DNA of 64,000 nt from contig JACCIC010000280.1 of assembly GCA_018907035.1 (NCBI GenBank), positions 310,001-374,000 on the forward strand, given 5' to 3'. Shown one piece after another: positions 7,841 to 58,911 of this stretch. Origin of the DNA: Sycobia sp. Sy_11. Taxonomy: Eukaryota > Arthropoda > Insecta > Hymenoptera > Epichrysomallidae. The position numbers were made by a program, and so were the translations under genes. Numbering within the stretch: the stretch's first letter is position 1; each line of letters opens with the position of its first letter. The notes below the pieces were generated by a model. That model searched no databases. It saw only the letters and a program-made list of their open reading frames with translations, and was not told where the DNA came from.

Positions 7841-9209
7841 TACGGCGAGTGCGCACGCTGCCCGATCGCTCAGCGTACATAATACGGCTCCCCCTCTAGT
7901 CGCCAACTACCGCCCCCCCCCATCCCGCCGCCCACGTATCCACCGACGCCAACCTCACATTGTTTCGCTCGTTGATTTCGGATTCGGAATGCCCGGATGC
8001 TCCCAAGAGACTCGCGCAATTCCCGATCATTAAAAAATGAGACTGTGGGAACGATACAGATATGACGGGTCCGATGACTCTCTTGTTAACAAATATTTTT
8101 ATTCTTCATTTCTCTTTTCTTTTTTTTTATTCTTTCGTTTACTGCGTATTCTTTATAGGGCTGAGCGAACGATGAAATAAAGTAATTGCGATGGACAATT
8201 TCAGGAAATTTCAAAGGCTTGAAGATCTCTATTATGCGCATCTATAAACGTAATTTTAATTTTATTATTAAACTAATATATTTTTACAGATAATTTGATT
8301 AGGAATAAGTGAAACTTAAATATTGGATCAATGAAAATCCAAAAAATTATTCAATATTCCCTAGATATGTATATATAGACTTTTCACAGCTAATCGTCCC
8401 TGTCGTTTACTAAACCTTTTCCAATATAAATTTTGAATTTACCCCGATCTGATGAGTTAAATAGTATATTTTATTAAGTTCCAAATATTTCCGTGTTAAT
8501 CCAAAACCCTCTTCAAGCGATAAATAAATTATTTAATCCAGTTGAGACCAATTGGCTAAAATCTTATGATATGTCCTGCACTCCGTATAATTAGATGTGT
8601 TAAGAACGATTGTAAAATATATACTTTACTAAACGATATAATTCATGCGTTGCTTGAAGAGGACGATGTGTACTACTGTGAAAATGTTAAAAGAAGTATA
8701 AATTATTTTGTTCGTCACATTGAAGAATTCTAACTATTGATCTATCAAGAACAATGAAATCTATTTTCTAAGGATAACATTTAAAAAAAAATTAGGCACA
8801 ACCTTATAATAACAGTTTTCCGCCAGTAGAGTGAGATCTCGTGAAAAATAAAAGTTATGCCAATAACAAAATGAAGCAGATGTTCGTTTTCGTGGCCGTT
8901 TAAATAACAGACAGACAGAGAGACAGAGAGAGAGAGAGAGAGATGGTCCCCTCTCCGATTGGCCGCTCTGGCAGCAGCGTGCAAGCGAAATACATCAGAT
9001 CATCGGGGATTGGGCGATATATATATATATATATATATATAAGTACGCCACGGCATAAGCGGCAGCAGCAGGCATCGCGTCAGCTCGACGCGCGGCGTGA
9101 ATTCCCACACATCAACAGGTCTCGGGAGGGCCGTACGGTAAGGGCCCCCGTCGCTTTCCCCCCGCTCGCCGGCACCGCATGGCTGGCTGTCATTTAAATA
9201 ATGGAAGCA
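7838..9209. other. Intergenic sequence with two microsatellites
   Basis: An (AG)n tract is at about 8908-8943 and a (TA)n tract at 9018-9041. A GC-rich patch occupies 9045-9180. No gene family was recognised. Confidence 0.5.
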
Positions 9210-10094
9210 TTAGGTTGGCAAATATCTCCCTTTCGACCTTTTTGTCTTATAAATTTCGCGGCTATTTACGAAGCGCTACAGAGCTCATATCTCGCAACAC
9301 TATACATCATTTTAAAGGTCTTAACATCACATACAAAACGACGCTATGCATGATTAATTTGCATATTGCGTTCAAAAGTTATAGACGTGAAACATGGAGT
9401 TCATTATCGCTGAAATTCGCGCTATTTTAAAGTTTTCCTTCGTCAAAGATACATCCGCTAGAGAAACATTCCGTGAGATTAATGGTATTTTGGTGGATGG
9501 CACGCTATCACTTCAAACCGCAGAGGAATGGTTTCGACCATTCAGAGCCGGTGAAAACGGCACCATGGATAAACCAGCCGGCGAAAGGCCTGTGACGACC
9601 AATGCCGATTCAATCATGGAATTTATCGAGTTAGGCCGGCATGTGGCAACTCGTGATATCACCCAGGGATGAGAGTTAGTCACCAAACCATTTTAAACCA
9701 TCTGCAGAAGGCTGGATACAAAAAAGCTTGATGTTTGGGTGCCGCATGATTTGAAGCAAAGAAACCTTCTAGACCGAATCAACGCCTGCGATGTGTTACT
9801 GAAGCGGAACGAACTCGACCCATTTTTGAAGCGGATGGATACTGGCGACGAAAAATGGATTACATACGACAATATCAAGTAAAAACGGCCGTAGTCCAAG
9901 GCCGGTGGACCGTCTCAAACAGTGACTAAGCTGGGATTGACGGCTAGGAAGATTTTCCTGTATGGTTGGTGGGATTGGAAGGGAATCATCCACTATGAGC
10001 TGCTTCATATGGCTAGACGCTTAATTCTACCATCTACTGTGAACAACTGGACCGCTTGAAGCATGCTATCGACCAGAAGCGTCCACAATTGCCC
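9210..10094 (+). mobile_element. mariner element, family A, copy 2, 3'-truncated
   Basis: The left TIR TTAGGTTGGCAAATATCTCC is intact. The transposase frame starts at 9394 (MEFIIAEIRAILKFSFVKD). It is frameshifted at 9670 (stop right after DITQG) and again at the A-run near 9722, giving the same KKA-stop as copy 1. The first catalytic block TGDEKWITYDN is intact near 9840-9875. The copy ends at about 10094 in DQKRPQL-like sequence just before the second catalytic Asp, where another mariner begins in the opposite orientation. Confidence 0.9.
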
Positions 10095-10600
10095 AATCAT
10101 TGTCATGCTGTAAATTCAATTTTTCATGCCTTTCGTTGTATTGCGGTGGTTTGTTTTTCAATGCTCCGATTAAACGCATCGAGAACCATCACCTGTGATT
10201 ATTTCAGTCAGTTTTAAGAACTCATAATATACTACGCCGAGCTGGTCCCATCAAGTACTGAGCATGACCTTGGAACCGTGAATATTCGGTTTGGCCATCG
10301 AAGAAGAAGCGTGGGCAGGATATCCCCATGATTATCGTAACAAACCCATTTCTCGCTCCCAGTCACGTGATGCAAAAATCCCATCCATCTTTGTCTTGCA
10401 AGCAGCTCTTTACAAGCAAACAAATACCGTTCAATATCTCTCGGCATCAATTCGTACAACACCGAATTTCCTTGTTTCTAAATCATTCCCACAACTCTCA
10501 GGCGTTTTAAAATGGCTTGATGCGTCGCTCCCAATCACCCTTCCAACGCCATGCTATACTTCGACGCTATGGCTCCTCATCAGGGACTAAACTAAACCTT
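10095..10600 (-). pseudogene. mariner transposase, family C, internal fragment
   Basis: On the minus strand the central transposase is readable: helix-turn-helix end HQAILKRLR (near 10510), then YELMPRDIER (10415-10462), LLARQRWMGFLHH, and the first catalytic block as TGSEKWVCYDN, with Asp replaced by Ser. Further on come WDQL..VYYE and, near 10105, a QHDN block with the second catalytic Asp. Both element ends are missing. Stops and frame changes interrupt it. It is the same family as the copies at 41535 and 54173. Confidence 0.75.
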
Positions 10601-15199: not shown

Positions 15200-15935
15200 A
15201 TTCTACCTACCCAAAAGAAAATTCTATAGCAGTCGTCCCGAGACATCTCCTATATTCTGAACATGATACTCTTCATAAGCCTCGTCACGAGACACTTGAA
15301 CATCTTTTTTAACCACCCGAAATCAAGAAATAATATAAGTATATTATATATAATAATACAATTATAAGTATAGTAATCGACGAAAATTTTAGATCTACCT
15401 CGAGAGAAATTTTATAAAATATTTTTATTTTTATCAAACCATATATTAAAATTCATGATATGCTTATGAAATTTAATGCATTTAAGAAAATAAATTTAAT
15501 TTAGCCAATTTAAATAATTTCTTGTTAGACAATAAATTATATTTTTTTAATTTAAAAAATATCGTTTCAACTAAATCAATTAATAAGTTTAAATAGATAT
15601 TTTTTATAATTAAAATAGTTAAATTGAACAAATATTTCGTTCTTTCAATTTCAAGAAATATATTTATTTAATATTATCAAATTTTGTTTCAATGTACATA
15701 AAATTACAAAAAATATCTCAAACAATAGTTTTAAATCACTTCAAAATATATCTTTTCTCAACAAATGTTTTTTGTTGGATAATTTTGTGATTATTTTATA
15801 ATCATCATAAATATTTTTGCCTATCGAATGTATAGACCCTGCATACCAGCTTTGCCCCGGTATATCTGGCCTGTCCGTCACGTCGGCTCGACAGAGCCAG
15901 CTGCTATTGCAGTGTAGCGTCTATATATACAGACC

Positions 15936-15938
<3 letters not shown>
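15200..15938. other. AT-rich sequence without recognised feature
   Basis: A+T-rich to about 15830, then a GC-richer patch (15838-15920) directly left of a (TA)n array. No family was recognised. Confidence 0.4.

Positions 15939-15976
<38 letters not shown>
15939..15976. repeat. (TA)n microsatellite at LTR border
   Basis: TA repeat that runs directly into TTGTAACATAAGC, the proposed outer edge of the Gypsy 2 LTR. Confidence 0.95.
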
Positions 15977-15979
<3 letters not shown>

Positions 15980-17043
15980 AACATAAGCACTTTGGTGAGA
16001 GCTAATTCGTGCTCCGGCTTAAAGCGCCTCGGCCCCGATCGCGCAGCACGCCATCGGATTCTTTTCACCCCACCAAAGACTATGTTCTATTCGTTTTAAC
16101 TTGCATAAACGAGTGGCTCCGGCTCAACCCGCCTCGGCCCCTAGTCGCTCAACGCGCCACTAGGTTCGCCTGTGCAAGATAATTTATTTATAATTTTTTA
16201 CGGTGCGTACTATACTTTGGCCTACGCTCAACACGCCTAGGCCCTTGGTCGCTCAACCCGCCACCAAGTTTGTTCTAATACACACCGAACCGCGAAATCC
16301 AATTCTCACTCTCACTCAACCCGCCAGAGTTCGAATTGGATTTTATTTTATTTATTTGTATTTTTTGTCTTCTTTTCGTTGCTGGATGTTAGGATCCAAT
16401 TAAATTTCTATTTATTTATGAATAAGAAAATTTATTAACAAAATATAAAAATAATTAACAAAAAATATAAAAACTAATAAACTTATTTATTTCGGCATTT
16501 GCCAACTTAGCCGCTGCTATCGACTTGTTTAGTCGCGCCATTATCCGCTGTAACAAATAAAATCATAAAATATATTTATTTTATGAAGTAGAAATTTAAC
16601 AATTATGATTAACTTAAAATTAACGCTCTGCGTGAGCGTAATTGCAAATTTTATTTATTTTCTATTCTACGTGATCGCGTCCCGCCCTGAGTGTGCTGAG
16701 ACTTGTCGCCCGCTATAGCGCCGACGACAAGTTCCCCTCGAATAGCCAGTTTCGAGGTCGCTGGCACACTGAATTTTCGCAATCAGTGCGGCTCTATTTG
16801 AGAATTGGGAAAGAGCGCTCGCTCTCCCCTTACCGCACTGTACCGCGCCTTAGAACTACGCAGCGCCGTCGCCGCCTGCGGCCCGAGAGCGCTCGCTCTT
16901 CTTCGCCACTGCCGGCGCTTTATCCCCGCGCCGCGCCTCGCCATGAAGCCTTCGGCGCCCCCCCTTCGCCGCATCGCGCCGCTCGCGACATCGCGACTTA
17001 TCTACAATATATAATATTTGCGCGAGACTATTGTCTCGTCGCA
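15977..17043 (-). repeat. 3' LTR of Gypsy 2
   Basis: Read on the minus strand the LTR starts TGCGACGAGACAATAGTCTC directly after a purine tract (GGGGGAAGGGGAAG, complement of 17046-17061) and ends TTATGTTACA at the (TA)n array, so it has TG...CA ends and a length near 1.07 kb. The middle (16690-16990) is GC- and CpG-rich and may hold the promoter. The end nearest 15977 carries the hairpin array. The 17043 border is uncertain, because some similarity to the 21.1-21.2 kb copy may extend beyond it. Confidence 0.55.
15990..16343. other. Array of hairpins with constant 13-nt loop, copy 1
   Basis: Seven hairpins share a 13-nt loop close to CGCTCAACCCGCC but have different stems: CCGAT/ATCGG (16035-16057), CCTAGT/ACTAGG (16140-16164), GGCCTA/TAGGCC (16219-16243), CTTGGT/ACCAAG (16244-16268), ACTCT/AGAGT (16308-16330) and two short CCG/CGG ones (16014-16032, 16119-16137). 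They are grouped in modules closed by outer stems: CTTTGGTG/CACCAAAG, CTTGCA/TGCAAG, CGGTGCGTA/TACACACCG and AAATCCAATTC/GAATTGGATTT. Three modules form three-way junctions with two inner hairpins, and the last has one. A diverged copy is at 58352-58586. Function is unknown; an RNA leader structure or protein-binding array is possible. Confidence 0.8.
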
Positions 17044-17061
17044 TCTTCCCCTTCCCCCGAG
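17044..17061 (-). promoter_or_regulatory. Candidate polypurine tract
   Basis: On the minus strand GGGGGAAGGGGAAGA lies directly before the proposed LTR start. Such tracts prime plus-strand DNA synthesis in LTR elements. Confidence 0.45.
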
Positions 17062-17129
17062 AAGAGTGAAACGCGGATACATAATAGACAATGAAACGTA
17101 GATTAATTTTACCGCTCAACTACATTATT

Positions 17130-18349: not shown

Positions 18350-19260
18350 TCACGTATCGTAACCGGTGTACGGTTTTATGTCCTTGACATGAATTTTTTC
18401 TATTAATTTCCCATCTGCCCCTTGCAGATTAAATATGACTGGGGAAACTTTCTTTATTATTGCAAATGGCCCACTATATTTTTCGCAAAGCTTTGCATTG
18501 AGCTGATTTGCTTTGTTTGACAGTATGTGTTGACGCTTCAGGACTTGTTGGCCAACATGTGGCTGCCAATCACGTCGGCGTAAGTCATAATATTTTCTCT
18601 GCCATGAGAAAGACTGTGCCGCTTTTATTTTGGCGAGCTCAAGTGCTTCTTGAATATTCCTTATCGTTTCTTCTGCTTTCTATTTTGAACGCTGTCCTAT
18701 TTCTTGTTTCAGGCTACCTGGTGCGCTTAGCTCTCGTCCGAAATTTAAATAAGCTGGCGTATAACCCGTGCTATCGTGCATGGCTGTGTTATACGCGAAT
18801 GAAATTTCGTTTAGATAATTATCCCATGTTTTTTGGCACTTATCTATGTACTGTTTTACCATAGTTTTTACAGTGTGATTTACCCGTTCTACAGGATTGC
18901 ACTGGGGTGAATACGGTGGCATAGTTCGATGAGTAATTTTCGCACTTTTTAATATTTGGCGAAACTCATTCGAAATAAATTTTCTACCGTTATCACTCAC
19001 TATTACTTGCGGGCATCCAAAACGTAATATAATTTGTTCTTGGATTGCTCGTCCTACGGCAGCACCCGTTGCTTTTCGTAATGCATGTAGTTCGATCCAT
19101 TTCGTTAATCGATCCTGCATTACAAGACGCATAATATGTCCGTTATTCGATCGCGGGAGAGGCCCCACCAAATCAACAGAGACCATCTCCCATGGCTGTG
19201 TTACATTTGTCGCGTGCATTCTTCCCGCCGGGGAATTATACACGCGTGTACGTACCATGT
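18350..19260 (-). pseudogene. Gypsy 2 integrase core and C terminus
   Basis: Minus-strand frame 18680-19258 holds the catalytic core: first Asp in SVDLVGPLP, second Asp in VIVSDNGRKFIS, and the Glu in NPVERVNHTVKTM. All three are present. The zinc-binding half lies in the preceding frame and is separated by a frame break near 19250. After 18680 another frame break leads into the C-terminal fold (LNAKLCEKYSGPFAIIKKV near 18460) ending at a stop at 18350-18352 after KPYTGYDT. Function as integrase is clear, but the gene is split in three frames. Confidence 0.85.
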
Positions 19261-20724
19261 GGCTTCACGGAACATGCCTGGCCAGTAGTAGCTTTTAGCT
19301 AATTTTGCTAAAGTTTTATCTACTCCTAAATGTCCTGCTGTGGGATCATCGTAGTTTTCTTTCAATATTCGCTGTTTTTCTGAGTCATTTATACATATTT
19401 TCCACTCGCTTAATTCATTTGTTTCATTAAAATCAAGCGTGTGTGATATGTGCCGATACAATCTATTGTCTTCTATCCTGTAATCCGGAAAATCATTCGG
19501 ATTTTCTGATATCGATTTATAAGTTTTCTCGTACCATTTATTTTCCGTTTTCGATATCGCATTTATTTCGACTGGATTCCGTGATAGTATGTCGGCCACG
19601 TTGTTTTCTGTCCCTTTTCGATACTGTATATCGAAATCCCATAGAGCTAATTCCAGTGTCCATCGTGCTAACCTTCCTGATGGATTATCTAACTTCTCCA
19701 ACCATTTTAATGATTGGTGATCCGTTACTACCGTAAACGGATAACCTTCTAGACATGGGCGCATTTTCCATATGCCCCACCGCACAGCTAAACATTCCAA
19801 TTCAGTGACGGAATAATTTTTTTCTGCTGGATTTAGTGTGTGGCTGGCATATACAATGACGTTCTCTTTTTCTCCGTCTATCTGTGTTAGCACGGCGCCT
19901 AGGCCATGTAAACTCACATCTGTTTGCAGGACAAAAGGCAGATTCCAATTTGGACATGCCAGAACAGGAGCTTGCGTTAAGTTTTTCTTTAGTTCTTCAA
20001 AAGCCGTTGCTTGATCCTGTGTCCATGTCCATTCTTTTTTCTTCTTTAATAGTATACTTAACGGTGCTGCTTCTGTTAAACTAATTTGCCAATAGCTATT
20101 TTTAAGGTCAATAGTTGATAGTATTCGTGCACCCTCCAACTTATCAAGAATTGACTGTATTTGTGGCAGTGGATAACCATCTTTTTTCGAAACTTTATTT
20201 AGACAGCGAAAATCAACACAAAATCGAGGTTTTCCGTCTTTTTTCCTTGCGATTACCACAGGACTACTCCATGGGCTGTCTAACGGTCGTATTATGCCCT
20301 CCTTTATCATTTTATCAACTTCCTCGTTGATAATTTTTTGCATTACCGGGTTTCTAGCTCGGTAACGTTGTTTTAAAGGCGTAGTGTCCGTCAGTCGTAT
20401 TTCATGTTTCACACAAGGCGTAGCCCCTTTAATAGAATTAAATTTTTCCATTTCCGTATGTATAAATTTTTCTAAATCTTTCTTTTGCTGTGTTGGTAAC
20501 TCTTGTAATCCTGTTTGGTTCTGAATACTTGAAATTTGATTTATAAATATATTACTATTTCTAAGTTTTTTGCCTTTCAATAAAACGTCGATGTCCAATT
20601 TAGTTAAAATATCCATTCCTAGGATAATTTTACAACTTAATTTATTCAATACGTAAAATTCTTGATTTACGTAATAATTTTTTATCTTGACTGTGCCTTT
20701 TATCCCTTTCATTTCAGATATCAA
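19201..20724 (-). pseudogene. Gypsy 2 RT (deleted), RNase H, integrase zinc domain
   Basis: A 507-residue frame. The RT N-terminal half is normal: MIKEGIIRPLDSPWSSPVV, then GKPRFCVDFRCLN, YPLPQIQSILDKLEGA and STIDLKNSYWQI (palm motif with first catalytic Asp). The sequence then jumps to KKKEWTWTQDQATAFEELKK, the start of the connection and RNase H. About 150 residues, including the YxDD catalytic motif, are missing, yet the frame stays open. RNase H follows (VLQTDVSLHGLGAVL, ELECLAVRW, VVTDHQSLKW) and then the integrase zinc domain (AGHLGVDKTLAKLAKSYYW). The frame ends where integrase shifts phase. Confidence 0.85.
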
Positions 20725-22321: not shown

Positions 22322-23532
22322 TTAGGTTGTCAAATATCTCCCTTCCGCTTTTTTGCTCTTCATTCCATGCTTTATAAATGTGTTACAGTGGTCAGATTTA
22401 CTTCAAATATTCGCCGTTTTATTCGATAATCTGTTTCCATCTGGACGGCAACTTCATAATACCCCTCTCGTAGTAACCATTCTCCTTATTTAAGAAAAAC
22501 TCGGACAGCCACTTTTCACAAGCCTTTTTTGAGTCCAACTTTACACCACCAAGGGCGCTTGACATAGACAGGCACAGATGGTAATCACTTGGCGCTATGT
22601 TTGGGCTATATGGTGGATGCGATAAATACTCCTATCTGACCTCCCGTAGCTTCCGACGAGTCATCAACGAACTGTGTGATCTGGCGTTGTCCTGGTGGAA
22701 CACTACACTCTTCCTGTTGACCAATTGTAGACGCTTCTGGTCGATTGCCTGCTTGAAGCGGTCCAGTCGTTCACAGTAGATGGTAGAATTAAGCGTCTAG
22801 CCATATGGGAGCAGCTAAAAGTTGATGATTCCCTTCCAATTCCACGAAACACACAGCAAAACCTTCCTGACCGTCAATCCCGGCTTGGCCACTGTTTGGG
22901 ACGATCTACCGACCTTCGAACGTTTTGGGTTCGAGTTCGTTCCGTTTCAGCACCACATCAAAGGCATTGATTCAGTCCAGAAGATTTTTTTGCGTCAAAT
23001 CATGCGGCACCCAAACATCATGCTTTTTTTCTATCTAGCCTTCTGCAGATGGTTTAAAATGGTTTGGTGACTAACCTCATCTCCTGGACGAGTTGCCACA
23101 TGCCGGTCTCGCTCGATAAATTCGATGATTTGATCGGTATTCGTCGTCACAAGTCTTCCACCGGCTAGCTTATGCATGGTGTCGTTTTCACCGGCTCTGA
23201 TTCGTCGAAACCATTCCTCTGTGGTTCGAAGTGATAGCGTACCATCACCCAAAATACCATGAATCTCCTGGAACGTTTCTCTAGCGGATTTGCTTTTGAC
23301 GAAGGGAAACATTAAAATTGCGCGAATTTCGGTGTTAGTATACTCCATGTTTACACGTCTATAACGTTTGAACGCAATATCTAAACTAAGCATGCATAGC
23401 GTCGTTTTGTGCGTTATGTCAAGACCTTTCCAATTATGTATAGTATTGCCTGATACGAGCTCTGTAGCGCCTTGTACATAGTCGCGAAATTCATAAGACA
23501 AAAAGGCGGAAGGGAGATATTTGACAACCTAA
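22322..23532 (-). mobile_element. mariner element, family A, copy 3
   Basis: Both TIRs are present, TTAGGTTGTCAAATATCTCC at the left and its complement at the right, flanked by TA at 22320-22321 and 23533-23534. Length is 1211 bp, about 70 bp shorter than copy 1, mostly from loss within the middle of the transposase. Confidence 0.93.
22445..23350 (-). pseudogene. mariner transposase, family A, decayed
   Basis: The ATG of family A is at 23350 (MEYTNTEIRAILMFPFVK). The N-terminal half is readable to HLQKA near 23040 with one frame loss where VATRDIAQ-like sequence is shortened. A TAG stop and an A-run shift follow. The part around the first catalytic Asp is deleted (the sequence jumps from NELEP-like to the PNS-like stretch near 22920). 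The C-terminal part survives in broken frames to about 22445. Confidence 0.85.
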
Positions 23533-23534
23533 TA

Positions 23535-23806
23535 TATATTTTGATTTATCGTTTTTTCTAAAATAATTTATTGTTAGTAGATAATTTTACATTATTTATC
23601 TTATCGTTTGTATTTCACTATCTTCTAGTTGATATAATCATTTCTAGCATCACTATTAGGAATATATACGTGTGATTGTGAAGTCTAATTAGGAAAAAAT
23701 ATCATGTATATAAATACAATGCATTATAGAGAAGAGTTTTTAAATAATTAGAATGTCCAATACACCATACTTGCTTTATTTCACATACTTTTGTAGAAAG
23801 TAAGAT

Positions 23807-42679: not shown

Positions 42680-43438
42680 TGTAACATCGAGCCACTAATT
42701 AGAATAAAATATTATTGATTTTAATAACCAAACGAAAATATATTTAAAAAAATCATAACATAGATGTAAACATTAAAGTATATATATATATTTATCTATG
42801 TACACACATATATACACATACGAACACATATATATATGTATATAAATTAAAGTTTTGTAGAATGAAGTAAAGGTAATAGAAATAAGAAGAAAGAATAAAA
42901 TAAAATAAAAATAAAGTTTTGTAGAATAAAAATCGAACCTAAAATCACTAAATTTCGTCTAGCATGTCATCATCTTATTTGGGCAAGGCCAAGAACTTCG
43001 TAATACCGCCGAAATAAGGCGTTGTCTTGCGCAATATCATACGTCAGAAGCGTATGTTTTTCCTACGAAGGTCTTTGAGGTAGCACAATATGTACATTAG
43101 AGATGCGCTAGTGTACAATTTTTAATGTTTAATTTATAGTAAAATTAGTACTTTTAACAACTAAACCACATTTTTAATACAACAAATAGTTAGCACAAAA
43201 ATTATAATAAATGTTTATAACAAAATTTATAAAGTTACATAAATATTAAGGCTAGAAGTAACAAAAATAAATAAAGCAATAAAATAAGCTGTAAAAACGA
43301 GGAGCAGAGAGGGATTGCGGATGATTATGATTTTTTTCCCCGATTTTTCCACAAAATGCATTCAGTTTCAGTCCAGTAAGCAGTGCCAGTCCAGTAGAAG
43401 TCTCGGTAGAAGAAGCAGCCAGTCAGGAAGTCGTATCA

Positions 43439-43489
<51 letters not shown>

Positions 43490-44015
43490 AGTAAGTAATA
43501 AACATAATTATAATTCAATTACTATTTTTCGTTTTTTTCTTTCTTTCCTCTGTCTCATTCTTTTCCATAATCTGGGGAAGTGGCTGGTTCTGCTCTATGG
43601 TAGGACTGTACATGCCCCTCTCATTTTTACTCACGAATATACACAAACACATATTTTCTCTGTTAGGGAATTAGGTCGGCAGGCCGAGGCGAATGCGATT
43701 TTTCTTATGAAAGAAAAGGAATTCGTATTCAAGTAGAGCCTTGGACTCTGGTCTATTTAATCAAGCTTAGGAAACACTCTAAGGTATAATAACCGAAAAT
43801 AACTATCATTGTATTATTGTTATTCAATTATTTAATAATCCCGAGTTAGTGGAGGAAACTCCAGGCTCGTTCGACGCTACATTCAAAGGCAGACATACAT
43901 ATATTAAGAAAAAATATGGGTGATCTTTGAACAAAGTTAATGTACACGAAAGGACATATATGCCCAGACGTCGCATTATACTTTGAATTTTGCGGGCTCA
44001 GCCGGGATTTCAACA
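42680..44015 (+). repeat. 5' LTR of Gypsy 3
   Basis: Starts TGTAACATCGAGCC and, by position of the primer-binding site, ends GGGATTTCAACA (TG...CA). The part 42680-43928 is shared with 51910-53319. It contains a (TC)n array at 43442-43488 that is followed by AAGTAAGTAA, a possible splice donor. If only the shared part is counted the LTR would end near 43928. Confidence 0.8.
43442..43488. repeat. (TC)n microsatellite in 5' LTR
   Basis: About 23 units. The matching array in the 3' LTR is about 2.6 times longer. Confidence 0.95.
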
Positions 44016-46001: not shown

Positions 46002-46976
46002 GTGAATATTCACGTCGAACAGGAAACGGAGTTACTTCCTACCGTGACTATCAAGAACCCAATGGGCGGCAAATGTAGATTCCTAGTAGACACAGGATCT
46101 CAAGGAAATTTAATAAAAATAGGAACCATACCCCATCAGTTCAAAATCGATGAGTCACAGAAAGGACTCTTGAGGAGGATAAGCTCAGAACAATTTTCCA
46201 CCCTAGGAACTTTAAAACTTAAAGTTTTGGGAGGAATCTCTAGTTTCCACGTCGTCTCCGATCATTTTCCAATACCGTATTCCGGTATTTTGGGGGCACG
46301 ATATTTAAGCGACGTTCGAGTAACACTAAACTACGGGATGAAACGACTAGAATTTCTTCATACTCCCGACCAACCGATTGAATTTGTATCACCAGAGATT
46401 CTTCGCAAAAATTTAGCCGCGGAATTGGAAGAAGGAGGAATACACCATACAGTAGACTCGTTACTTGTGAATGCACCTACCGATAATCAGAGCAACGAGA
46501 GCGAAACAGACGATGAACAACAAAGGCTGAACGAAGAATTGTTACACATAGATGATAATGATACAAATGAATTTTTAAATAATTACTTCGATAATGAGAG
46601 TATATCCACAAAGACGCTTTATTCACTTACGCAACAACTAATATTTGAAGAACTGAATATCCCCTCAAAGGGAGTAAATAATGAAGGCACCGTTTTCCCC
46701 ACGGAGAGCTTAACTTCCGTGCAAACCGCATCTATAAGGGATATAATACGGACAGATCACCTTAATGAAGCCGAAAAAGAATATGTACAGCACTTAGTCG
46801 AAAAAAACCACGATATTTTCTTTCTCACCGGAGATTCATTGCCTGAAACAGATACTATAACTCATAGAATAAAAAACGCATATGAAGAACCAGTCAATGC
46901 TCGACAATATGAATTCCCTTACTCGCTCAAAGAAGAAATAGATAGACAGGTGAATGATTTATTAACCAAGGGGTGA
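46002..46976 (+). CDS. Gypsy 3 second protease domain and linker to RT
   Basis: A 324-codon frame. Near residue 29 it reads CRFLVDTGSQGNLIKI with an intact D-T-G active site. The second half has DHFPIPYSGILGARYL, the hydrophobic Gly segment of the fold. An acidic linker follows (DNDTNEFLNNYFDNESI), then DHLNEAEKEYVQ and ITHRIKNAYEEPVNARQYEF, the usual lead into RT. A one-base loss in the G-run at 46970 ends the frame before the RT. Only this domain could be active. Confidence 0.8.
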   Translation: MNIHVEQETELLPTVTIKNPMGGKCRFLVDTGSQGNLIKIGTIPHQFKIDESQKGLLRRISSEQFSTLGTLKLKVLGGISSFHVVSDHFPIPYSGILGARYLSDVRVTLNYGMKRLEFLHTPDQPIEFVSPEILRKNLAAELEEGGIHHTVDSLLVNAPTDNQSNESETDDEQQRLNEELLHIDDNDTNEFLNNYFDNESISTKTLYSLTQQLIFEELNIPSKGVNNEGTVFPTESLTSVQTASIRDIIRTDHLNEAEKEYVQHLVEKNHDIFFLTGDSLPETDTITHRIKNAYEEPVNARQYEFPYSLKEEIDRQVNDLLTKG

Positions 46977-47605
46977 TAGAGAACTTCGATTCTCCATTTA
47001 ATAGACCAATTTGGATCGTAAAGAAGAAAGCAGATTCACAAGGTCGACCAAGATGGCGAATGGTGCTCGATTACAGAGCTTTGAATGAAAAAACGGTAAG
47101 CGATGCATATCCACTGCCGAATATCACTGAGATATTTGACCAAGTAGGAGGTGCAAAATATTACTCCGTACTAGACCTTGCATCAGGGTTTCACTCAATT
47201 AAGATGGACCCGAGAGATGCACATAAAACAGCTTTCAGTACGCCGTTTGGACACTATCAATTCATTCGTATGCCTTTTGGGTTAAAAAATGCACCCGACA
47301 CTTTTCAAAGGTTAATGGACACCTTATTCAGAGGACTACAAGGCAGAGAATTGTTTGTGTACTTGGACGACATTGTGATATATGCAAACACACTGGCAGA
47401 ACATGATAGAAAATTGAGTCTACTATTAAACAGACTTCGAGACGCCGGATTGAAGTTACAAACCGACAAGTGCGAATTTTTGAAAAGAGAAGTGAATTAT
47501 CTAGGATATCGTTTGAGTGAAAAAGGACTTAGTCCCGACGAAAAAAAGATAGAAGCTGTAAAAGACCACAACCGAAAAACGCAAAGAACGTGCTTCTTGG
47601 TTTAG
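46973..47605 (+). pseudogene. Gypsy 3 reverse transcriptase
   Basis: RT copies the RNA into DNA. The frame holds RWRMVLDYRALNEKTV, YPLPNITEIFDQVGGAKY, the first catalytic Asp in SVLDLASGFHSI, FSTPFGHYQFIRMPFGLKN and the catalytic FVYLDDIVIYAN, then CEFLKREVNYLGY. All palm motifs are intact. The frame is cut from protease by the 46970 shift and from RNase H by a loss near 47580, where the LGLAGYYRRF tract starts in another frame. Confidence 0.9.

Positions 47606-52171: not shown

Positions 52172-52231
<60 letters not shown>
52172..52231. repeat. (TA)n microsatellite in 3' LTR
   Basis: About 29 TA units, not present at the matching place in the 5' LTR. Confidence 0.95.
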
Positions 52232-52236
<5 letters not shown>

Positions 52237-52757
52237 GTTTTGTAGAATAAAATCGAACCTAAAATCACTAAATTTCGTGTAGCATGTCATCATCTTATTT
52301 GGGTGAGGCAAACAACTTCGTAATACCGCCGAAATAAGGCGTTTTCTTGCGCAAGATCATACGCAGAGCGTATGTTTTTCCTACCAACGGTCTTTTAGGT
52401 AGCACAATATGTACATTAGCGATGCGCTAGTGTCCAATTTTTAATGTTTAATTTATAGTAAAATTAGTACTTTTAACAACTAAACCACATTTTTAATAAA
52501 ACAAATAGTTAGCACAAAAATTATAATAAATCTTTATAAAAAAATTTATAAAGTTACATAAATATTAAGGCTAGAAGTAACAAAAATAAATCAAGCAATA
52601 AAATAAGCTGTAAAAACGAGGAGCAGAGAGGGATTGCGGATGATTATGATTTTTTCCCCCGATTTTTCCACAAAATGCATTCAGTCTCAGTCCAGTAAGC
52701 AGTGCCAGTCCAGTAGAAGTCTCGGTAGAAGAAGCAGCCAGTCAGGAAGTCGTATCA

Positions 52758-52884
<127 letters not shown>

Positions 52885-53476
52885 AGTAAGTAATAAACAT
52901 AATTATAATTCAATTACTATTTTTCGTTTTTTTCTTTCTTTCCTCTGTCTCATTCTTTTCCATAATCTGGGGAAGTGGCTGGTCCTGCTATATGGTAGGA
53001 CTGTACATGCCCCTCTCATTTTTACTCACGAATATACACAAACACATATTTTCTCTGTTAGGGAATTAGGTCGGCAGGCCGAGGCGAATGCGATTTTTCT
53101 TATGAAAGAAAAGGAATTCGTATTCAAGTAGAGCCTTGGACTCTGGTCTATTTAATCAAGCTTAGGAAACACTCTAAGGTATAATAACCGAAAATAACTA
53201 TCATTGTATTATTGTTATTCAATTATTTAATAAAAATTATTAGAGGAAACTCCAGGCTCGTTCGACGCTACATTCAAAGGCAGACATACATATATTAAGA
53301 AAAAATATGGGTGATCTTTTATGTGTATTTTAGTAGTTTACGGTTTGGAGAATACTTACCTATAGACTACTTTCAATTTTCGATATTCAGGCAAATTTAC
53401 CATCTAATTTTAGTATTTAAATTAAGATATTGAATTCACTTTAGTATTTTATAGTGAACCTTATATCACAATTTAA

Positions 53477-57769: not shown

Positions 57770-58330
57770 TTAATCTAATTCATCTCCCTCAAAATAATAC
57801 CCGCCGGATGCAATGCAACTATGCCAACGCTTTTTTAAATTTTCAAAACATTTTTTATACTCGTATTCCGGAATGGCGATCAGTTCCTTCTTTTATTCCA
57901 AAACCGTGTCCTTGAAGTGGTCTTTTGAATTTGCTGAACAGCCAGAAATTACAAGGTGCTAAATCACGCGAGTACGATGTTTGTGGAACGATATTGGTTG
58001 AATTTTTGGCAAAAGATTCACTTAAAACTAATGTAGTGTGAGTTAATGTATTATCGTGATGTAAAAACCAAGAGTTCTCTTTCCAGAAATCTGGTCTTTT
58101 GAGACCAATAGCTTCACATAAGCAATGTATAACGATTAAATAATATTCTTTATTAATCGCTTAGCCGGTTGGAAGGAATTCAAAATGCACCACACCATAC
58201 TAATCGAAAATAACAGTTAGCACAGCCTTGATTTTTCAGCTACTTTCACCTGATTTTGGATTGGTATTTTTTGGATGATATTGTTTCTTGATCGAGTCAA
58301 GTCGGGTTCTTTTCGCTACACCAGTTACGA
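57770..58330 (-). pseudogene. mariner transposase, family F, copy 1, C-terminal half
   Basis: Read on the minus strand from 58330: TRLDSIKKQYHPKNTNPK, then a frame shift, VVHFEFLPTG near 58160, KRPDFWKENSWFLHHDN with the second catalytic Asp (near 58065), then SRDLAPCNFWLF (near 57960) in which the third catalytic Asp is Asn, and KRPLQGHGF. It ends with FENLKKRWHSCIASGGYYFE near 57790. The N-terminal half is missing. Beyond 58330 hairpin-array sequence starts. Confidence 0.8.
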
Positions 58331-58351
58331 AATATTTTTCTTCACGTTTTG

Positions 58352-58586
58352 ACTTGCAGAAACGTTGCTCCGGTTCAGCCCACCTCGGAACCTGACCGCT
58401 CAATTCGTCGTCAGGTTCGCTCGTGCAAGTTTCTTTCAATTTCCCGGTGTTATTTAAACTATAGGTTTGGCCTACGCTCAGCCCGCGTAGATCCTTGGTC
58501 GCTCAGCCCGCCACCCAGTACCTACAGTATAAATATTTAGTTAATCTCAATTCGAACTCTCGCTCAATCCACCAGAGTTTTGAATT
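58352..58586. other. Array of hairpins with constant 13-nt loop, copy 2
   Basis: Diverged relative of 16100-16343. Outer stem ACTTGCA/TGCAAGT (58352-58358, 58424-58430) encloses CCG/CGG and ACCTGAC/GTCAGGT (58390-58416). The second module has outer stem ACTATAGGT/ACCTACAGT (58458-58466, 58520-58528, one mismatch) and inner CTTGGT/ACCCAG (58494-58518). The last has ACTCT/AGAGT (58556-58578) within AATTC/GAATT. Loops stay close to CGCTCAACCCGCC. Versus copy 1, CCTAGT/ACTAGG has become CCTGAC/GTCAGG, with both arms changed together. The first module of copy 1 is absent, cut off at the mariner. Confidence 0.8.
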
Positions 58587-58911
58587 AGTCATTATTTATT
58601 ATTCAATTCAAAAATAAAATTTTTAAATATTCAAATAGAAAATGAGAGTGCTACGACCATTCCCCTCTCACCGTTCCGTACCCCGAAGCTCGCGGTACTC
58701 GCTCCTTACCGTGCCGTGCGGCGCCGTAGTACTTTCGGCAATACCCTGCACCGCACCGTCTACTGCCCGCGGTGCTCGCGTCGGTCCGTAGAGAAACAAC
58801 GTTTGTTCGAGCGTCTTCGAGCGTGCTCGGTTTTCTTTCTCTCTCTATTTGATCTTTTTGATCTTTTTGATTTTCTGCAAGATTCTTCTCGCGAGGACGA
58901 GACTTTATAAA
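58587..58911. other. GC-rich LTR-like sequence right of hairpin array
   Basis: Same order as in the Gypsy 2 LTR: hairpin array, A+T spacer, GC-rich stretch with CTCGCTCCTTACCG (compare CTCGCTCTCCCCTTACCG near 16820), then CTCGCGAGGACGAGAC. A TATA-like TTTATAAAA is at 58904-58912. Probably a diverged solo LTR of the same family. Confidence 0.45.

Follow-up and report, generated by a model that had tools for sequence, protein, structure and literature searches.

The window analyzed in this study is a 64,000-nt stretch of Sycobia sp. Sy_11 DNA (GenBank assembly GCA_018907035.1, contig JACCIC010000280.1, positions 310,001 to 374,000). It carries a Ty3/Gypsy retrotransposon, whose copy in the window has one long terminal repeat (LTR) only. 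The final 367 nt of this LTR, filling the end of its U5 (unique 5′) region, are an array of hairpins that share a nearly constant loop and differ in their stems. Most of these hairpins stand in twos on a common outer stem, and this two-hairpin unit was found again in diverged families of the same genome. In window positions, the features of the element are as follows.

15977..17043, minus strand: LTR (3′ LTR of the local Gypsy element), 1067 nt, with edges common to copies elsewhere.
17044..17058, minus strand: purine-rich tract directly upstream of the LTR in sense, at the position of a polypurine tract, a function suggested by its sequence.
18683..20724, minus strand: Gypsy pol pieces (reverse transcriptase (RT)/RNase H, integrase), from reading frames and the Pfam domains RT_RNaseH, RT_RNaseH_2, Integrase_H2C2 and rve.
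16295..16343, minus strand: M1, a single hairpin with a longer stem and the constant loop at 16313-16325, from the fold and the loop match.
16201..16287, minus strand: M2, a three-way junction in the fold, with loops 16250-16262 and 16225-16237; 75.7 bits with the unit model R1 (training-set member).
16096..16182, minus strand: M3, a three-way junction in the fold, with loops 16146-16158 and 16121-16133; 79.1 bits with R1 (training-set member).
15980..16086, minus strand: M4, the three-way junction closest to the primer-binding site (PBS) side, with loops 16040-16052 and 16016-16028, the latter decayed in the window copy; 55.6 bits with R1 (training-set member).

Six of the seven array loops matched CGCTCAACCCGCC with no more than 3 mismatches (16040, 16121, 16146, 16225, 16250, and 16313). 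The seventh, 16016-16028 (GGCTTAAAGCGCC), had 4 mismatches in the window copy, but in other copies the corresponding loop departs little from the motif. The seven hairpins with a near-constant loop reported in the initial annotation were thus confirmed. In the whole window, both strands, there were 17 matches to CGCTCAACCCGCC at up to 3 mismatches, whereas 3.0 were expected, and none of 100 shuffles reached 17. Folding of the minus (sense) strand of the array gave −148.9 kcal/mol (z-score −6.65), and the plus strand gave a weaker −112 kcal/mol (z-score −4.98). For both strands, no fold among 100 shuffles was equally good. In the minus-strand fold, three junctions carry two hairpins each and one hairpin is single. 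The pairing of hairpins within outer stems, as annotated initially, therefore holds for the three junctions, but one of the seven hairpins stands alone. The array itself was confirmed, but it starts at the LTR end, 15977, rather than at 15990, and its RNA has the sense of the minus strand.

The minus-strand loop sequence is GGCGGGUUGAGCG, for which a drawing as a 7-nt loop, GNGYUGA, closed by two G-C pairs is preferable; next to these pairs lies a G.G mismatch in the first hairpin of a unit or a third G-C pair in the second. As modeled, the unit is a three-way junction in which two hairpins ending GGC-GNGYUGA-GC(G/C) stand on an outer stem. Loop statistics were taken from 159 distinct hairpins, after restriction to those having at least 4 of 6 Watson-Crick pairs (274 of 391 kept). 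Position 5 could be any base, position 7 was C or U in 157 of the 159, and the remainder was largely fixed. A search against Rfam 15 gave no match in the window; the range 15900-17100 yielded 8 weak matches, all far under the gathering scores.

The anatomy of the element was then read from the window and from copies elsewhere. Because the pol pieces lie on the minus strand, minus is the sense strand, and because they lie to the right of the LTR, the window copy is a 3′ LTR. RVT_1 in these pol pieces was just below the Pfam cut-off. In sense (17043 to 15977), the LTR reads TGCGACGAGACA...TTATGTTACA, with TG...CA ends. Directly after the array, that is, after the end of U5, 10 of the 27 copies examined continue with TGGCGCCC. 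The PBS sequence adjoining the LTR end is TGGCGCCCGAACAGGGAC, which we take to be of the tRNA-Lys type. A look-up of the host tRNA found three places, and the single one read was not a tRNA gene according to ARAGORN. All nine copies flanked by host DNA at both ends had 4-bp target duplications (L004, L005, L006, L018, L019, L020, L021, L022, and L028; L019 requires one substituted LTR base). LTR pairs about 6.6 kb apart were found at C65 and C80, their two LTRs being 94.5% and 88.8% identical. With these pairs, the TG...CA ends, PBS, purine tract, and RT/RNase H/integrase, the element is a Ty3/Gypsy LTR retrotransposon. The shared edges at 15977 and 17043, together with the ends, the purine tract, the PBS, and the duplications, bear out the initial placement of the array in a Gypsy LTR, at the end nearest the PBS. 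As the PBS directly follows the array in 5′ LTR copies, the array should lie in the leader of the genomic RNA, and this part of the initial annotation is also supported by the LTR/PBS anatomy. Since AATAAA motifs occur before the array and one occurs inside it, a position in U5 or late R (repeat region) is likely.

By description, the element fits the Osvaldo lineage in its long LTR (1067 nt), its 4-bp target duplications and, if it is of the tRNA-Lys type, its PBS. Mosquito elements of that lineage are described as having LTRs of 997-2055 bp, a tRNA-Lys PBS, and mostly 4-bp duplications (PMC3286476). Three mosquito elements conserve 29-30 nt across the LTR/PBS boundary, a stretch thought to be under constraint, and the difference from our element is that the section on the lineage describes no hairpin array or RNA structure (PMC3286476).

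Two further observations concern the LTR. Splice-like signals were present on the minus strand of the window LTR at about 16834 and 16551, namely GGTAAG and, closer to the array, TTTGTTACAG; a similar, acceptor-like TTTGTTTCAG was present in the LTRs of two other copies, L101 and L103, one from a family with the unit and one from a family without. These signals hint at a leader intron. Some copies (window 15939-15976; L011 and L012) adjoin (AT)n repeats, which mask the target duplication, and this neighborhood may reflect a target preference.

Pattern searches were extended to the whole assembly of 621 Mb. The pattern CGCTCARCNCGCC occurred 1712 times, whereas the reversed pattern occurred 186 times. 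Clusters were read among the first 100 listed places of CGCTCARCNCGCC, so that counts by family come from samples. Several families, lettered A to D below, could be told apart by their stems. After exclusion of the single-loop loci (L036, L056, L064, L066, L067, L077, L080, and L086), 37 distinct clusters with at least two loops remained. In 29 of them a TGTTACA-like LTR end followed the last loop within 130 nt, as against 788 of 3250 random stretches from the same loci. The other eight clusters lacked such an end, and three of these belonged to family D. An LTR-end-like heptamer stood 28-37 nt after the last loop in 26 of the 37 clusters. Mapped against LTRs, these 26 clusters lie at a regular distance from the LTR end and not at random; random placement would have spoken against the initial annotation.

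A second array, which the initial annotation did not contain, was found in the same window.

58302..58600, minus strand: second, diverged array (family B), with units 58467-58520 and 58364-58417 and a single-hairpin loop at 58561-58573.

In a self-comparison of the window, it was about 70% identical to the first array over 227 aligned positions. Its units scored 61.6 bits (58467-58520) and 63 bits (58364-58417, a training-set member) with R1, and its fold had a z-score of −3.2. Locus L066 shows the family B array beside the PBS. A family C copy (L075) folded into two single hairpins and three junctions, with a z-score of −5.4 for the sense strand and −3.7 for the antisense strand. Compared with family A, the Gag protein was 82.5% identical over 200 residues at a family C locus (L081) and 29-49% identical at the family B locus L066. 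No relatives were found in IMG/VR by the RT piece or the Gag alignment, or in the prokaryote genome set by the Gag alignment. The sole IMG/VR match to the motif (L094) kept the loop and not the stems; it was dismissed as chance and left out of the hairpin and outer-stem statistics.

To the question of selection on the structure, three comparisons were applied, all with units from this one genome, and the shuffles and permutations used leave relatedness in. For pair counts, 25 of 35 listed units and one core from window 58364-58417 were aligned, giving 26 distinct units. The ten others, judged by eye to be damaged, recombined, or near-duplicate, came from L055, L063 (its second unit), L078, L079 (both units), L081 (both units), L087, L089, and L090. 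Standard pairs filled 91.2% of 362 pair cells. Shuffling lowered this to 84.6%, and sliding the partner by 1-3 columns to 23-44%; the units were aligned by sequence, but the structure came from members' folds, which tilts the slide control in its favor. Two-sided changes were seen in 10 of 14 pairs, whereas shuffles averaged 4.7 and only 1 of 500 reached 10. The outer stems lay outside the structure used for these counts. They were compared in 30 units less than 80% alike, damaged units included. Own flanks gave a mean of −16.4 kcal/mol and swapped flanks −10.4 kcal/mol, and none of 20,000 permutations was as good. The own partner was among the best three in 17 of the 30 units; it was not in the other 13, damaged or recombined units included. 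For the hairpin stems, 259 loops matching the motif exactly were taken with no stem filter. Their 60 distinct stem pairs formed 4.97 of 6 pairs, compared with 3.05 after swapping (0 of 2000 swaps as good).

These results bear out on other families the initial claim that the stems differ and are nevertheless complementary. The exchange of whole stems across families is hard to account for other than by selection for pairing. Such selection would maintain the loops and the overall shape while the stem sequence changes. The initial annotation had further argued that the pattern is hard to explain by simple tandem duplication; an old tandem duplication with later compensatory changes could nevertheless have produced the array, so a tandem origin may still hold. 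Action as RNA, not DNA, rests on the position of the array and its better fold in sense.

In family D the unit is located beyond the PBS. With R1, one unit each was found in L074, L076, L084, and L085. In L074, L076, and L084 it stood after the PBS and before the start of gag, at about 190 nt past the PBS. Between family D (L074) and the window's family (L025), Gag was 40% identical. What the window LTR has in common with L074 is chiefly the 52-nt unit (86.5% identity); a weaker 79-nt match (68%) lay elsewhere. Judged from the sequence, the unit in family D has moved across the PBS and yet remained in the leader. Sixteen PBS sites were then sampled from the first 21 listed (omitted were two on C5, C30:172456, C30:910880, and C33:431559). 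Eight matched R1, all after the PBS, two (L096 and L098) were family D without the hairpins, and six lacked the unit. Among 100 of 154 PBS places listed, the unit's intact 3′ edge followed downstream in 39, at a distance of 189-211 nt in 38 and of 142 nt in the remaining one; conversely, 11 of the 50 intact unit edges in that contig range had no listed PBS. Searches with exact short patterns found the intact edge at 64 places and the hairpin-deleted junction at 3 places (L096, L098, and G000:C107:821811), where both hairpins were deleted at the same junction. As L096 and L098 also have in common other departures from two intact copies, the deleted copies look like a sublineage, not single-copy decay.

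The Gag proteins were analyzed as possible partners of the loops. In several loci, Gag of the window's family contains CWRCKQQGHTRFQC followed by a second Cys-rich motif. A CCHC match was found in 30 of 46 Gag homologues, among which sweat bee, ant, and Trichogramma wasp proteins were named. The Gag piece of family D stops before the knuckle region; its homologues P0001-P0003, 66-72% identical, carry the knuckle. Retroviral nucleocapsid zinc knuckles favor exposed G in loops, and the conserved loop starts with G-N-G. The mechanism we favor, still tentatively, is multivalent Gag binding of the leader units for packaging. The array would act in cis as a structured signal within the 5′ leader of the transcribed Ty3/Gypsy RNA, made of repeats of one RNA unit. 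Its loops would be bound by the element's own Gag through the CCHC zinc knuckles, several copies allowing multivalent binding, and Gag binding would choose the genomic RNA for packaging and perhaps dimerise it. Held slightly less firmly is the broader idea that insect Ty3/Gypsy RNA has in the twin-hairpin unit a portable domain for Gag recognition, kept intact amid LTR and leader turnover, multiplied in U5, and carried across the PBS in one family. If true, Gypsy elements would have a defined packaging signal, one duplicated and relocated as a module. A covarying leader unit of diverged Gypsy families also offers a concrete RNA for Gag-recognition tests and a covariance model for insect genomes.

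As a separate observation, three of the bee and ant Gag homologues (P0017, P0042, and P0043) are annotated as 'activity-regulated cytoskeleton associated protein'-like, that is, with Arc-like names on retrotransposon Gag.

Among known systems, the nearest parallel is the pair of GACG hairpins in the leaders of murine-leukaemia-type retroviruses, reportedly described by Konings et al. in 1992. In both, hairpins with the same loop are neighbors in the leader, a leader assigned here by anatomy. Unlike the GACG tetraloop, which is not present here, the loop is the 7-nt GNGYUGA on a short G-C closing stem; and unlike the GACG pair, the array usually combines three twin units with single hairpins and lies mostly within U5, ahead of the PBS. 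A passage of PMC516450 describes GACG tetraloops of alpha- and gammaretroviruses as involved in packaging and possibly contributing to dimerisation. For Ty1 and Ty3, packaging sequences are said not to be precisely defined; these leaders likewise have a structured 5′ end with functions in tRNA annealing, dimerisation, and packaging, but the relevant passages do not describe repeated constant-loop hairpins (PMC4974528; PMC11381356). In insect endogenous retroviruses, according to a part of PMC12992720, the LTR and 5′ untranslated region (UTR) are the most divergent, and only short motifs at LTR borders and the PBS are conserved. Titles and abstract beginnings of the open-access literature, with subscription papers and preprints outside the search, yielded no paper on a constant-loop hairpin array, and its novelty is provisional.

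Several results weigh against the packaging reading. Six of the 16 sampled PBS sites belonged to families with no unit nearby, five of the six with a related Gag; these copies (L097, L099, L100, L102, L103, and L109) have the same PBS and were searched about 400 nt before and about 350 nt after it. In the three-place family D sublineage, loss of both hairpins was tolerated at least for a while. Because related families lack the unit and this sublineage lost both hairpins, the unit cannot be an absolute need of the lineage. A cut-short copy of the family B array (L068) folded no better than shuffles (z-score 0.01), and the family D leader of L074 folded only moderately well (z-score −2.77; 1 of 100 shuffles equally good). 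The strand test was weak: stem G-U versus A-C was 34:27 in filtered and 22:16 in unfiltered hairpins, and the outer stems were better in sense in only 19 of 30 units.

Next in rank after Gag packaging comes export or translation through a host factor, which we regard as rather unlikely. The units would recruit either the ribosome or an RNA-binding protein of the host and serve export of unspliced RNA or internal initiation of gag. Repeated identical leader loops suit any RNA-binding protein, and in constitutive transport elements repeated loops do serve nuclear export of unspliced RNA, an export that could pose a problem here given the splice-like LTR signals. The family D unit, between PBS and gag, would also suit such a role. 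In the window's family, however, Gag similarity begins about 118 nt after the PBS and the array lies on the opposite side, which is odd for an internal ribosome entry site. Improbable, in our estimate, is a DNA-level array of protein-binding repeats acting as enhancer or insulator. The gypsy 5′ UTR repeats, as described in a passage of PMC3286476, are likewise a tandem motif in a Gypsy leader region, but they are DNA-level regulatory repeats for which matched stems are not required. A constant core seven times over does resemble an array of binding sites. A DNA site requires no matched change of stem arms or outer stems; cruciform DNA, on the other hand, would covary as well, and the strand test was indecisive.

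A small selfish hairpin unit, spreading by itself and landing in LTRs and leaders, would account for the differing places of the unit relative to the PBS among families. We consider it very unlikely, as the heptamer at 28-37 nt in 26 of 37 clusters is too regular for scattered insertion, and, with the Gag proteins of the families homologous, common descent plus a shift is simpler. Least probable, by a little, is that the loops pair with the D-arm of the primer tRNA and aid primer placement. Ty1 has extra tRNA-binding boxes, the array abuts the PBS, and GYUGAGC could pair with GCUCAGU, a common tRNA D-arm sequence. However, a 7-base pairing with that stretch was matched by 247 of 500 shuffles and is common by chance, and ARAGORN did not recognize a tRNA gene at the one candidate place examined.

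Other repeats were present in the window. Repeats 1173-2060, 9209-10096, and 22327-23542 were 85-93% identical, and 23034-23501 has the HTH_48 domain of Mos1 transposase; the three are probably mariner copies. Direct repeats 42905-43928 and 52226-53319, 96-98% identical, flank an RT region (46973-47602) and are probably the LTRs of another retrotransposon.
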